A stretch of DNA of 64,000 nt. Source: Flavobacterium piscisymbiosum (GTDB lineage Bacteria > Bacteroidota > Bacteroidia > Flavobacteriales > Flavobacteriaceae). Every line of letters starts with the position of its first letter. Within the stretch, counting starts at the first letter, position 1. The stretch spans positions 4,464,001 to 4,528,000 of the forward strand of contig NZ_JAJJMM010000001.1 of the NCBI RefSeq assembly GCF_020905295.1, in the 5' to 3' direction. The notes below the pieces were generated by a model. That model worked only from the letters and a program-made list of their open reading frames with translations, was not told where the DNA came from and made no database searches. Below are positions 12,314 through 62,230 of this stretch, in pieces. Position numbers and translations under genes: made by a program.

Positions 12314-12396
12314 TTAGGAGCTAATCCCGCTATACGTTCCAATCTTTTGTGTCCGCGGTGGCGGACACAAAAGGATTTCCACTTCTATCGGGGCTA
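12314..12396 (-). repeat. Structured dispersed repeat, copy A
   Basis: The core is a perfect 13-bp hairpin: CTTTTGTGTCCGC (12343-12355) and its complement (12360-12372), loop GGTG. It is bracketed by an AGC...CCCG / CGGG...GCT outer pairing. Read on the minus strand it aligns along its whole length with copy B at about 16184-16265, sharing the ends CTAGCCC...TAGCTCCTAA, while the hairpin stem differs in sequence yet stays paired. Such covariation points to a folded RNA or cruciform element. Whether this is Rfam Flavo-1 was not tested. Confidence 0.7.
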
Positions 12397-12429
12397 GGAC
12401 AATCATTTTCATAACAATATTTTCGTGTG

Positions 12430-16001: not shown

Positions 16002-16392
16002 TGTTTTTATTATTGTAGAGTTCTGATTTTAGATTTTAGATTCTGCCACAGATTACTCAGATTTAAATGATTTTTTTAGAACCTTTGGTTCTGTTTTTTC
16101 TCTCAATTATGTCATCCCTCGTTCCTCGGGATGAAATATATTGTGTATAAATGTTACTATTACTTCTTATGAATCCTAAAGCCCTAGCCCTGATGGGAGC
16201 GGCATCCTTTTGTGCCGGTGTTCGGCGCAAAAGATATAGCGGACAGCAGGAAATAGCTCCTAATTATTAAAATTCCAAATTCTTTATCCCGAAGCATTGG
16301 GACCAAATTCCAATGTTGAACGCGCTTCTCCCGATTTCTATCGGGATCGCTCAGCGTGACAATATGAAACTAAAAAAAACTTGAAACATTTT
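16002..16392. other. 391-bp repeat-bearing intergenic region
   Basis: No gene. Contains TAGATTTTAGATTCTG tracts, a small CATCCC...GGGATG hairpin near 16110-16132, structured repeat copy B (about 16184-16265), the AATTCCAAAT/CCCGAAGCAT unit (about 16268-16316) and a CCCGATTTCTATCGGG palindrome near 16330-16347. Confidence 0.7.
16184..16265 (+). repeat. Structured dispersed repeat, copy B
   Basis: Homologous to copy A in reverse orientation. The hairpin CTTTTGTGCCG (16207-16217) / CGGCGCAAAAG (16223-16233) keeps base pairing, with one G-T wobble, although its sequence differs from copy A. The conserved ends CTAGCCC and TAGCTCCTAA are retained. In both places it lies next to an AATTCCAAAT...CCCGAAGCAT unit, so the two repeats may travel together. 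Confidence 0.7.
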
Positions 16393-59892: not shown

Positions 59893-61197
59893 TTATTTCA
59901 GTTGAGTAGTATTTACTCTTGTTGGTGTATCTTTTCCACTAATAATCGAAGAAGAACTTAATGCAATTGATTTTATAATTTGAGTCATGTTATCAATATC
60001 TAACGTTTCAAATTCATCATCTACTGTGTGATACGTTGGCTCATTATCCATTTTTGAAGTAGAAATGGTATGAGCAGGAACTCCAAGCTTGGCCAAAGTA
60101 GCGTTGTCTGAGCGATAAAATAATTGTTGTTCAGGATAAGGATCTGCATAAAATTTAAAACTTGTTCCAGTTAAATTTGTTTGTAAAATGGGCCCCATAT
60201 TCGACTTTTCATAGCCTGTAATGTAAGCCGAGTTTTTACCCCATTTAGATTCTGTTCCTATCATTTCAATATTGAACATCGCAATCACCTTTTCTGGTGC
60301 AAGTTGTTTAGAAAAATATTTGGCTCCATAGCCGCCCAATTCTTCAGCTACAAATGTGGTAAAAATAATAGTACGCTCATTGTTATTTTGTTTTTTAAAA
60401 TATTTCGCAAGCATTATTACTGCTGTTGTACCAGCGGCATCATCATTAGCGCCATTATAAATAGAATCTGTTGCAGAACGCGGAGCACCTTCTTCAGGAG
60501 AGCCTACACCTAAATGATCATAATGCCCTGAAAAAATCACATACTCATTTGGCTTAGTTTTTCCGGGTAATATTCCAACAACATTATTCAATGTTTTTTT
60601 GGTGATTGTATTTGTTAATTCAACAGAAAAAGTAGTCGCTTCGATGGTACCAAAAACAAACAGAATTGTATTGTTTCCAGGGCTAGCACTTATTCGATCA
60701 ATATGTTGAATATTTGGTAAAACATTATCAAAAGAAGGATCAACTAGTACCAAAAGATTTTTTGGGCTTTTATAATATTCGTTAAATTTCTCGCCAATGT
60801 TATCCCCTTTATTGATTTTTACAATAGAAATATCGCTTTTTTCAGTTAAAGAAACTTGAGGAAGGTAGGAGAATGTTGCAACTTGATTATTATTTATTTC
60901 TTTGCCATCAATAGTAATTTTTGAAGAAACTGTTTTAGAGGCAGTCATCGAAAATTCTTGTCTGTAATTCTTTGCTGCATCGAAAGTTTGTAAACCAATA
61001 GCCCCAAACTCTGATTCTATAAAGGCAGATGCTTTGTCAATACCGGGAGTAAAAGTTCTCCTGCCCTGCATATCATCAGCCGAAAGTATTTTCTCTATAC
61101 GAGTTACCTCCTTGGTTGTAATAATTTTATCAATCGATTGTCCATGTACATTCAAACATTGACTTAGAACAAAGATACTTACAATAATTTTTTTCAT
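59893..61197 (-). CDS. Secreted M28 family metallopeptidase
   Basis: 434 residues, signal peptide ending VHGQ. The dizinc aminopeptidase site is present: H in SGHYDHLGVG, D in YNGANDDAAGTTAVIM, E-E in FVAEELGGYGAKYF, D/E in FNIEMIG, and H in PTYHTVDDEFETLD. An N-terminal PA-like insert sits at about 110-200. Cleaves peptides at the cell surface or in the periplasm. Monocistronic with a -7 box upstream. Confidence 0.9.
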   Translation of the reverse strand: MKKIIVSIFVLSQCLNVHGQSIDKIITTKEVTRIEKILSADDMQGRRTFTPGIDKASAFIESEFGAIGLQTFDAAKNYRQEFSMTASKTVSSKITIDGKEINNNQVATFSYLPQVSLTEKSDISIVKINKGDNIGEKFNEYYKSPKNLLVLVDPSFDNVLPNIQHIDRISASPGNNTILFVFGTIEATTFSVELTNTITKKTLNNVVGILPGKTKPNEYVIFSGHYDHLGVGSPEEGAPRSATDSIYNGANDDAAGTTAVIMLAKYFKKQNNNERTIIFTTFVAEELGGYGAKYFSKQLAPEKVIAMFNIEMIGTESKWGKNSAYITGYEKSNMGPILQTNLTGTSFKFYADPYPEQQLFYRSDNATLAKLGVPAHTISTSKMDNEPTYHTVDDEFETLDIDNMTQIIKSIALSSSSIISGKDTPTRVNTTQLK

Positions 61198-61321: not shown

Positions 61322-61357
61322 AAAAACGCCTTAATTTCTTAAGGAGTTTCTTGGTGG
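61322..61357. repeat. AATTTCTTAAGGAGTTT hairpin at the end of the tRNA array
   Basis: AAAAACGCCTTAATTTCTTAAGGAGTTTCTTGGTGG borders tRNA relic 1. This is the hairpin half of copies X and Y, tying those dispersed repeats to tRNA 3' flanks. On the minus strand it follows the relic as a terminator-like hairpin. Confidence 0.6.
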
Positions 61358-61449
61358 GCGATGATAGCCTGTTCCGATTTTTATCGGAAGGTTCGCCCAC
61401 CCGACCACTTCCGAAGAAATCGGAATGCTCTGAACCAGCTGAACTAATC
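61355..61449 (-). pseudogene. tRNA-Val-derived relic 1
   Basis: The acceptor 3' side (CGCCCA), parts of the T region, the D-arm side and GATTAG of tRNA-Val are recognisable, but the 5' acceptor strand is gone. A hairpin TTCCGAT-TTTT-ATCGGAA has been inserted beside the T arm, and the anticodon arm is replaced by another TTCCGA/TCGGAA hairpin. The T loop is damaged (GTTCGCCCACC). Not a working tRNA. Confidence 0.8.
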
Positions 61450-61694
61450 TTTGTTTTGTATTAATTCTTGAATTTTAATTCTGCTTTTCCAAGATTTAAT
61501 TTGTAATTCTCTTTTATGTGCAAGCTCTTTTGATGGATAGTTTTCTGTGTAAACAATTTTCCAGTCGTTTACATTTCCTGTAAACCTTTACTTTTCTGAT
61601 TGTGTCTGATGATTTTATCTTCTAAATTAGAAGTAAAGCCAATGTAAAATTTGTTTTTGCTTTCGCTAAAAAGGATGTAAACAGTGAAATTCAT
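61444..61694 (-). pseudogene. Frameshifted GIY-YIG nuclease copy
   Basis: Reads MNFTVYILFSESKNKFYIGF up to HNQKSKG, then a one-base deletion in an A run (61582-61584; three A instead of four in the neighbour copy) causes a stop. With the base restored the frame continues to ...ELIQNKD and stops at TAG inside tRNA relic 1. The VYI/FYIG motif is intact, but the catalytic-arginine position is lysine (LEDK). Homologous to 61845-62096. Confidence 0.85.
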
Positions 61695-61710
61695 AAATAG
61701 ATATAAAGCA

Positions 61711-61744
61711 AAAAACTCCAAAATCAAATGATCTTGGAGTTTTT
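61711..61744 (-). terminator. Terminator hairpin between tRNA relic 2 and nuclease copy 1
   Basis: AAAAACTCCAA (61711-61721) / TTGGAGTTTTT (61734-61744), identical to the hairpin behind the intact tRNA. Confidence 0.8.
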
Positions 61745-61753
61745 GGAATTTTG

Positions 61754-61850
61754 TGGGCGATGATAGCCTGTTCCGATTTTTATCGGAAGGTTCGAACCCC
61801 CGACCACTTCCGATTAAAAATCGGAATGCTCTGATCTATCTGAGTTAATC
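61754..61850 (-). pseudogene. tRNA-Val-derived relic 2
   Basis: Same rearrangements as relic 1: TAGCCTGTTCCGATTTTTATC-type insertion at the acceptor/T junction and a TTCCGATT/AATCGGAA anticodon arm. The T loop GGTTCGAACCCCC is intact here. The 5' acceptor strand is replaced by the end of the nuclease gene (stop at 61845-61847). Confidence 0.8.
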
Positions 61851-62096
61851 TTTGGATTGAATTAATTCTTGAATTTTGATTCTGCTTTTCCAAGATTTGA
61901 TCTGTAATTCTCTTTTGTGTGCAATTTCTTTGGATTCATATTTTTTAGTATAAACAACTTTCCAGTCATTTACATTTACTGTAAAACCTTTACTTTTCTG
62001 ATTGTGTCTGATGATTCTATCTTCTAAATTAGAAGTAAAGCCAATGTGAAATTTGTTTTTGCTTTCGCTAAATAGGATGTAATCAGTGAAATTCAT
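61845..62096 (-). CDS. Small GIY-YIG nuclease, tRNA-associated
   Basis: Start taken at the ATG 62096 (MNFTDYILFSESKNKFHIGF); the longer frame would translate the terminator from a TTG. 83 residues of the URI/GIY-YIG fold: Y in TDYI, FHIG for the usual YIG, LEDRIIRHN with the catalytic arginine, and the glutamate in KRELQIKSWKSR. The Tyr-to-His change in YIG may abolish cleavage. The last codons GAT TAA lie in sequence derived from tRNA-Val GATTAG. Flanked by the intact tRNA upstream and relic 2 downstream. Confidence 0.8.
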   Translation of the reverse strand: MNFTDYILFSESKNKFHIGFTSNLEDRIIRHNQKSKGFTVNVNDWKVVYTKKYESKEIAHKRELQIKSWKSRIKIQELIQSKD

Positions 62097-62112
62097 AAAT
62101 AGATATAAAGCA

Positions 62113-62146
62113 AAAAACTCCAAAATCAAATGATCTTGGAGTTTTT
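62113..62146 (-). terminator. Terminator behind tRNA-Val
   Basis: AAAAACTCCAA (62113-62123) / TTGGAGTTTTT (62136-62146), 10 bp downstream of the tRNA 3' end on the minus strand. Confidence 0.85.
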
Positions 62147-62155
62147 GGAATTTTG

Positions 62156-62230
62156 TGGGCGATGAGGGGTTCGAACCCCCGACCCCCTCGGTGTAAACGA
62201 GGTGCTCTGAACCAGCTGAGCTAATCGCCC
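62156..62230 (-). tRNA. tRNA-Val (anticodon UAC)
   Basis: 75 bases, all arms paired: acceptor GGGCGAT/ATCGCCC, D arm GCTC...GAGC, anticodon arm CCTCG-TTTACAC-CGAGG with UAC at positions 34-36, T arm GGGGG-TTCGAAC-CCCTC, discriminator A. CCA is not encoded. A perfect promoter lies 35-64 bp upstream. Confidence 0.97.

Follow-up and report, generated by a model that had tools for sequence, protein, structure and literature searches.

Integrative elements that target tRNA genes keep the tRNA intact and leave a tRNA fragment at their far end, and free-standing GIY-YIG homing endonucleases are encoded beside their target and are present or absent at homologous sites. Chenal et al. are said to have described in 2025 the Ssn family, site-specific GIY-YIG nucleases whose target in Neisseria is reportedly a repeated sequence in single-stranded form. 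With respect to palindromic repeats, PMC8266576 reports in vitro processing of single-stranded REP by TnpA-REP, and Di Nocera 2013 (PMC3733652) describes CGTC-tagged REPs as having 8-9 bp stems that almost always start with AT, loops of 4-5 and, apparently, no dedicated transposase.

In the 64,000-nucleotide stretch of DNA analysed here (the window), we identified an array that we tentatively read as two decaying copies of a GIY-YIG/hairpin element that resides, and duplicates itself, at tRNA genes, with the nuclease in a presumed role; we give this reading a little less than an even chance. The original prediction of one intact tRNA-Val(UAC) on the minus strand followed by two units of about 402 bp was borne out. 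ARAGORN calls a single tRNA in the window, tRNA-Val(tac) at 62230-62155 on the minus strand, and direct repeats after this gene, with a start-to-start spacing of 399-402, delimit unit 1 (62154-61753, 402 bp) and unit 2 (61752-61354, 399 bp). One unit consists of a terminator, a small GIY-YIG gene and a dead tRNA copy with a palindrome for its anticodon arm. The order on the minus strand is tRNA-Val(UAC), terminator, GIY-YIG, dead tRNA-Val, terminator, broken GIY-YIG, dead tRNA-Val and terminator. The array is flanked on the plus strand, downstream of 62478, by what we take to be an ABC transporter gene, and on the minus strand (59893-61197) by a gene presumably for an M28-type peptidase. The features are as follows:

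62155..62230, minus strand: intact tRNA-Val, anticodon UAC (ARAGORN; Rfam RF00005, 66.6 bits)
62113..62146, minus strand: terminator hairpin of unit 1 ("unit type"), an inverted repeat
61845..62096, minus strand: intact GIY-YIG ORF of unit 1, 83 aa (PF01541, E=7.9e-13)
61753..61850, minus strand: dead tRNA-Val copy 1; 5' acceptor strand absent, anticodon arm and T-arm altered, 3' end intact
61808..61826, minus strand: palindrome TTCCGATTTTTAATCGGAA in place of the anticodon arm of dead copy 1
61771..61788, minus strand: second palindrome, TTCCGATAAAAATCGGAA, in the T-arm of dead copy 1
61711..61744, minus strand: terminator hairpin of unit 2, its 34 bases identical to those of unit 1
61444..61694, minus strand: GIY-YIG gene of unit 2, broken by a frameshift
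61354..61449, minus strand: dead tRNA-Val copy 2, without the 5' acceptor strand
61409..61425, minus strand: palindrome TTCCGATTTCTTCGGAA in place of the anticodon arm of dead copy 2
61372..61389, minus strand: second palindrome in the T-arm of dead copy 2
61326..61347, minus strand: last terminator, behind the array, of the type directly behind tRNA-Val at the unit-free loci L073, L074 and L080

The GIY-YIG domain of unit 1 scores 49 bits against a curated PF01541 cut-off of 22.6; structure matches by sequence are the UPF0213 GIY-YIG proteins 1zg2 (E=1.4e-9) and 1ywl (E=7.7e-8). The predicted composition of each unit, i.e. a terminator, a nuclease frame and a relic lacking the 5' acceptor strand, applies to both units, except that the frame of unit 2 is broken near 61582, where one T is missing. 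Likewise, the claim that tRNA sequence supplies the nuclease stop codons is correct for unit 1, in which TAA sits in tRNA-derived GATTAA (61850-61845, dead copy 1), and for the original frame of unit 2, which ends in tRNA-derived GATTAG (61449-61444), but not for the ATG frame of unit 2, which stops at 61569. At GIY genes more widely, the stop codon often lies within tRNA-derived sequence and at a few genes falls within the hairpin itself. The Tyr of the YIG motif is present in 139 of the 143 GIY domains compared by motif match, and His is found in window unit 1 alone. With this Tyr-to-His change in unit 1 and the frameshift in unit 2, both window nuclease copies are probably inactive, which makes a decaying example the best reading of the array. 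The GIY genes compared are under purifying selection: 99 sequences supplied 327 pairs, selected by limits on identity and dS, and the median dN/dS of these pairs is 0.12. Between the two units, 182 nt from the tRNA 3' end into the GIY gene are 98% identical, compared with 85-91% for other repeated stretches, which suggests that part of the unit was homogenised recently.

The anticodon-arm palindrome, which is an addition to the original prediction, replaces the native tRNA-Val arm CCTCG-TTTACAC-CGAGG with TTCCGAT-TTTTA-ATCGGAA in dead copy 1 and TTCCGA-TTTCT-TCGGAA in dead copy 2. The pattern CCGATN{0,8}ATCGG occurs four times in the window, three of them inside the array (expected, 0.22; 0 of 100 shuffles). 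TCCGATN{0,8}ATCGGA occurs at four places in the 6.49-Mb genome, three of them in this array, and on this basis we rejected a genome-wide REP insertion as the origin of the hairpin. In type-I loci, dead copies were detected by 3'-half similarity alone, and the hairpin was not a criterion. A stem of at least 6 bp is present at the anticodon position in 74 of 81 such dead tRNAs from Bacteroidota (shuffled mean 4.0, maximum 10) and a stem of at least 7 in 67 of 81 (shuffled mean 0.9, maximum 4); for the 72 distinct copies, the corresponding counts are 65 and 59. Among 133 type-I GIY genes, a dead copy was detected at 82, of which 81 have enough sequence, and none was detected by this criterion at 51 (27 of them Val), including the window array because its T-arm is interrupted. 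The palindrome is not universal, and eight of the 82 detected dead copies have stems shorter than 6 bp. The stems vary yet stay paired (TTCCGAT, TCCCGAT, TCCCGAC, TTCCGC, TTCCGT and CTCCGGC), and those of Pro units differ (TCACGCT or TGGCGC). The dead copy at L151 differs from tRNA-Val at the 5' end, in the anticodon arm and at a few bases beside that arm and matches it elsewhere, which argues that the hairpin is not a product of late decay.

The pattern AGAGYATYCCGATN{0,8}ATCGGRA, which marks dead Val, Ala and Arg(tct) tRNA copies in the fetched loci, was found in 25 of the 121 genomes sampled from the genus, while a reversed-pattern control gave 0 in all. In a scan of named genomes, the best 80 of 432 confirmed matches gave 78 loci, 75 of which have at least 100 nt downstream of the GIY gene. 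Within these best 80 of 432, a CCGA palindrome with a stem of at least 7 lies within 120 nt past the GIY end at 62 of 75 loci versus 2 of 400 control windows taken from these loci, and any hairpin with a stem of at least 7 at 70 of 75 versus 42 of 400.

Comparison of filled and empty sites bears on the original prediction of a mobile unit that inserts at, and rebuilds, tRNA-Val ends. A dead copy at L151 occupies the position of the intact tRNA-Val of L074. The sequences behind the intact copy of L074 and behind the dead copy of L151 align from the second base with 86% identity over 169 bp, and the upstream flanks differ. This supports insertion with one tRNA kept intact, while we infer the role of the nuclease as its driver. 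Comparison of the loci shows that a unit directly behind a tRNA gene leaves one functional tRNA and a 3'-complete dead copy. Among the fetched tRNA-Val loci (n=65, a non-random sample including duplicate records), 51 are filled and 14 empty. The tRNA-Val genes of the unit-free L073 and L080 and the second tRNA of L074 are followed by ACTCCTTAAG..., and the terminator of unit 1 differs from the one at these three places. At L151 and in the window, a unit terminator follows tRNA-Val and a ACTCCTTAAG-type terminator follows the last dead copy. The unit-free L069 has a unit-like terminator behind tRNA-Val. By motif counts over 58 loci, the terminator behind an intact tRNA-Val with a GIY gene behind it is of the unit type in 19 of 30 cases, native in 6 and other in 5; without a GIY gene within 420 bp, it is native in 14 of 41, of the unit type in 15 and other in 12; and for terminal dead copies with a hairpin, it is native in 14 of 37, of the unit type in 12 and other in 11. 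The terminator rule is common and loose rather than strict, which lowered our confidence in the self-duplicating element from even to just below even.

The possibility that all relatives carry one fixed array was contradicted. Among five species with the locus comprising the ABC transporter, tRNA-Val and peptidase genes, two have 2 GIY copies there (with one copy broken in one of these species), two have 1 and one has 1 plus a fragment; the closest two relatives, judged by the ABC gene (87.5 and 85.3% identity), lack a unit at the locus of the window; and units are found at other tRNAs. GIY identity correlates weakly with flanking-gene identity (rho 0.30; 120 non-independent pairs from 16 loci). 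Within eight sets, tandem units are 94.0-99.6% identical, and the nearest outside copy is 81.5-86.7% identical in five sets, 94% in Flavobacterium sp. 11 and 98.8% in F. soyae; identities of L152 and L154 to other genomes were set aside because differing ORF ends shift the comparison. These values show that tandem units multiply and are homogenised locally. In Flavobacterium sp. 11, two loci ~42 kb apart, one of them without an intact tRNA within 700 bp upstream, share units that are 99.2-99.6% identical. The units of F. soyae are as close to those of another genome as to each other, which counts against a self-duplicating element. Homologous recombination alone could produce tandem copies, and because arrays of dead copies without GIY genes have also amplified (L060 and L087), it may suffice.

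As the original prediction anticipated for related genomes, similar units are found at tRNA-Val and at many other tRNAs, i.e. Ala, Arg, Asn, Asp, Ser, Pro, Gly, Lys and others. The window genome has a second array, L012 (G000:C1:722600-725600), with tRNA-Ala(ggc), three GIY copies and dead tRNA-Ala copies that have TCCCGATGCATCGGGA at the anticodon arm; one GIY copy is an 82-aa ORF of normal length, one reads on into the next unit and one has an internal TGA. By title, the named-genome loci (best 80 of 432) are nearly all from Bacteroidota, and the taxa include Flavobacterium, Chryseobacterium, Christiangramia, Pedobacter, Algoriphagus, Chitinophagaceae and Bacteroidales. Three bins with Bacteroidota-type units (L157, L185 and L186) are titled Bifidobacterium breve, Candidatus Kuenenia and Actinomyces viscosus, and these titles look wrong. 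A tRNA lies within 700 bp upstream of the GIY gene as Val at 58, Arg at 2, Ala at 1 and Asn at 1 of the 78 named loci from the best 80 of 432. A phylum sample of 41 genomes covered most small GIY genes among the matches listed and yielded 93 scored ORFs, some of them duplicated. Among these listed matches, 29 of 93 ORFs have a tRNA within 150 bp upstream, representing 17 kinds by anticodon, and 21 have a CCGA hairpin; nine further ORFs in the sample have an ARAGORN tRNA that overlaps the GIY stop or starts within 7 bases of it. In a combined set of 199 distinct GIY domains, biased to Val because the searches were seeded with Val proteins, a tRNA lies within 150 bp upstream at 104, at the stop at 11, within 900 bp upstream at 29 and at neither distance nor the stop at 55; in a few cases, what ARAGORN called as a tRNA here is a dead copy (e.g., L136, L164 as "Cys" and L203 as "Phe").

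The units occur in two mirror arrangements, which also go beyond the original prediction: intact tRNA, GIY gene and dead 3' part, or dead 5' part, GIY gene and intact tRNA. At the four mirror loci inspected, a palindrome-bearing 5' part of the same tRNA lies upstream of the GIY gene, with the palindrome in or near the D-loop (L263, L273 and L275) or in the anticodon arm (L270). Where a dead copy lies upstream of an intact tRNA, its 5' half is preserved and its 3' half degraded. In two genomes, different tRNAs have a CCTGCCTG-type palindrome in their dead 5' parts (L263, L267 and L273), as if from one shared repeat family. We also observed dead tRNA-Pro copies with a similar arm palindrome and no adjoining GIY gene seen (L084, L094 and L134), a single dead tRNA-Arg copy ~112 kb from the tRNA-Arg locus of its own genome (L085), four tandem dead tRNA-Arg copies with terminators and no intact tRNA-Arg in the fetched stretch (L087), and a tRNA-Ala(ggc) beside a GIY unit (L090:1370-1444) with the anticodon stem CTACG/CGTAG versus CTTGC/GCAAG in the other tRNA-Ala compared.

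A GIY tree of 180 domains, 139 of them tRNA-labelled, was built from few columns and has many unresolved forks. It requires 26 label changes, a few of which are due to miscalled labels, compared with a least possible number of 13 and a shuffled mean of 52.6 (0 of 200 shuffles as low). Seventeen GIYs without a tRNA label group at one end. GIY lineages are thus mostly faithful to their tRNA, in keeping with residence at tRNA genes, and jumps between tRNA types are rare, which counts against a self-duplicating element. The Val-type window protein had zero matches in the plasmids or phages searched, while a mixed GIY alignment gave three distant matches in viral contigs. Because plasmid or phage carriage of the Val-type protein was not found, transfer between cells is left without an explanation, and this also counts against such an element.

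Some GIY genes away from tRNAs accompany other palindromes. Among 34 listed non-tRNA GIY genes of the phylum sample, three (L293, L294 and L303) are flanked on both sides by TGTC-tagged palindromic repeats in inverted orientation, and L299 has a TGTC-tagged palindrome on one side. All four belong to a single genus, in which they were found in two genomes, and one event may account for both L293 and L303; the link between TGTC repeats and GIY rests on these two genomes. One TGTC-tagged repeat has 21 copies in one of these genomes and 91 in the other, and 0 in each of four further genomes checked, that of the window among them. A dispersed palindrome, TCCCGATN{0,6}ATCGGGA, with the centre AGCT at most sites among the matches listed, has 80 sites in the window genome (G000) and up to 105 in another species of the genus. 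It is absent from the 12 Y1-transposase loci of the window genome, and a gene partner was looked for and not found. As a source of the hairpin it was rejected; its numbers in 121 genomes do not, by eye, obviously track the dead-tRNA pattern. Several such palindromes in other genera resemble ordinary terminators, and we therefore do not claim them as targets. In the window, two Flavo-1 RNAs (12319-12399, minus strand, and 16182-16257, plus strand; Rfam RF01705, 76.3 bits each) were detected, and a CCGATTTCTATCGG palindrome lies at 16331, 74 bases past the second.

The mechanism that we propose for the element was shaped by the Ssn work, which lies outside the data analysed here. The nuclease would recognise the palindrome folded as a single-stranded hairpin and introduce a nick, either next to this hairpin or at the corresponding arm of the tRNA gene where the nuclease resides; a new unit would then be copied in when the nick is repaired with an existing unit as template. 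The spare tRNA copy would be harmless, and the tRNA gene would be a conserved target that cannot be lost. In a broader reading, which we consider possible but on balance doubtful, such units would be minimal mobile elements found throughout Bacteroidota that use a GIY-YIG enzyme and a hairpin instead of a transposase, duplicate a tRNA, mark the spare copy by arm exchange and rebuild the working tRNA, and GIY-YIG enzymes would be the missing mobiliser of CGTC-type repeats.

Alternatively, the enzyme could serve the host as an Ssn-like single-strand nuclease encoded beside tRNA genes with a palindromic target in cis, acting on incoming or lagging-strand DNA in uptake or recombination, with tRNA genes as a safe, repeat-rich home and RecA recombination making the arrays. 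Purifying selection on GIY, the tie between palindrome and GIY, the dispersed palindromic repeats that accompany some other GIY genes and the zero plasmid or phage matches all fit such a nuclease. We nevertheless regard it as unlikely, since it leaves unexplained why a dead copy and an arm replacement recur at many tRNA types and why the units are patchily present at orthologous loci. A plain tandem duplication of tRNA-Val and its neighbour gene, with decaying extra tRNA copies and accidental hairpins, would account for the direct repeats, the pseudogene-like relics, the broken GIY gene of unit 2, the amplification of GIY-less arrays and the unit-type terminators behind some unit-free tRNA-Val genes. 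However, the same arm is replaced in 74 of 81 copies, and pairing is maintained. These features, the similar design at many tRNAs and the L151 dead copy, which is near-intact outside the 5' end and anticodon-arm region, strongly disfavour it, and we consider it quite improbable.

In type III toxin-antitoxin systems, tandem RNA repeats neutralise the nuclease, and the dead tRNAs could similarly give rise to tRNA-like transcripts that act on the adjacent nuclease as decoys, regulators or neutralising RNAs. The partly kept cloverleaf (ARAGORN tRNA-Lys calls; Rfam tRNA above threshold in L087), the tandem repeats with terminators between them and the arms paired via different sequences are in line with this idea. 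Against it, the 5' acceptor strand is absent in the downstream copies inspected, the T-arm is destroyed in many copies including those of the window, the dead part is the 5' half at mirror-type loci and, to our knowledge, GIY-YIG enzymes act on DNA; a role at the RNA level is therefore very unlikely. Least probable by far are remnants of integrase-driven elements that target tRNA 3' ends. Such elements would leave the 3' part of the tRNA directly repeated at either end of the insert, as is seen here, but the window units are only ~400 bp, contain no integrase and have GIY as their sole gene, GIY is the component that recurs, and the repeated part begins near the tRNA 5' end or anticodon; this origin is disfavoured.

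Small GIY-YIG nucleases, tRNA genes as sites of integration and palindromic repeats for which no mobiliser is known are usually treated as separate subjects; read as a self-duplicating element, the array brings them together, and it gives a concrete test of what moves CGTC-type repeats. The dead copies also call for caution in annotation: ARAGORN calls some of them tRNA-Lys, -Glu, -Cys or -Phe, and some exceed the Rfam tRNA threshold (L087 and L049). A description of this arrangement of tRNA, GIY-YIG gene and dead copy was not found in the literature searched, whose scope mostly excluded subscription papers, and passages of PMC12306157 and PMC1564403 do not describe it.

Among known systems, the "REPtrons" of REP/RAYT (TnpA-REP) likewise combine a small enzyme gene with short palindromes. 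However, their enzyme is of the HUH Y1 type, whereas that of the window is GIY-YIG and its palindrome is built into a dead tRNA, and CCGA(T/C)..(A/G)TCGG is absent from all 12 Y1 (PF01797) loci of the window genome, where a REPtron would have it. CGTC-tagged REPs have similar stems, and TGTC-tagged ones flank 3 GIY genes in the phylum sample, but the window stems are preceded by the tRNA sequence GAGC where the CGTC tag would be, and one CGTC/TGTC repeat pattern has 0 matches in the window genome. The Ssn family, compared by description only, reportedly combines a small single-domain GIY-YIG enzyme, as here, with a cognate repeated sequence; a candidate counterpart of this sequence in our data is the palindrome, which lies next to 62 of 75 GIY genes from the best 80 of 432. 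In contrast, tRNA residence, dead tRNA copies and tandem units are not known to be part of the Ssn description. The UPF0213 GIY-YIG proteins (1zg2 and 1ywl) differ in being named hypothetical proteins, and we know of no link between them and tRNA. Like tRNA-targeting integrative elements, the unit has an intact tRNA and a tRNA fragment at its far end, but it is ~400 bp and has a nuclease only, without an integrase. Finally, the units resemble homing endonucleases in having a nuclease gene by its presumed target and in being present or absent at homologous sites, the ABC transporter locus included, but they differ in that they have no intron, that an intact target-like tRNA remains and that they form tandem arrays.
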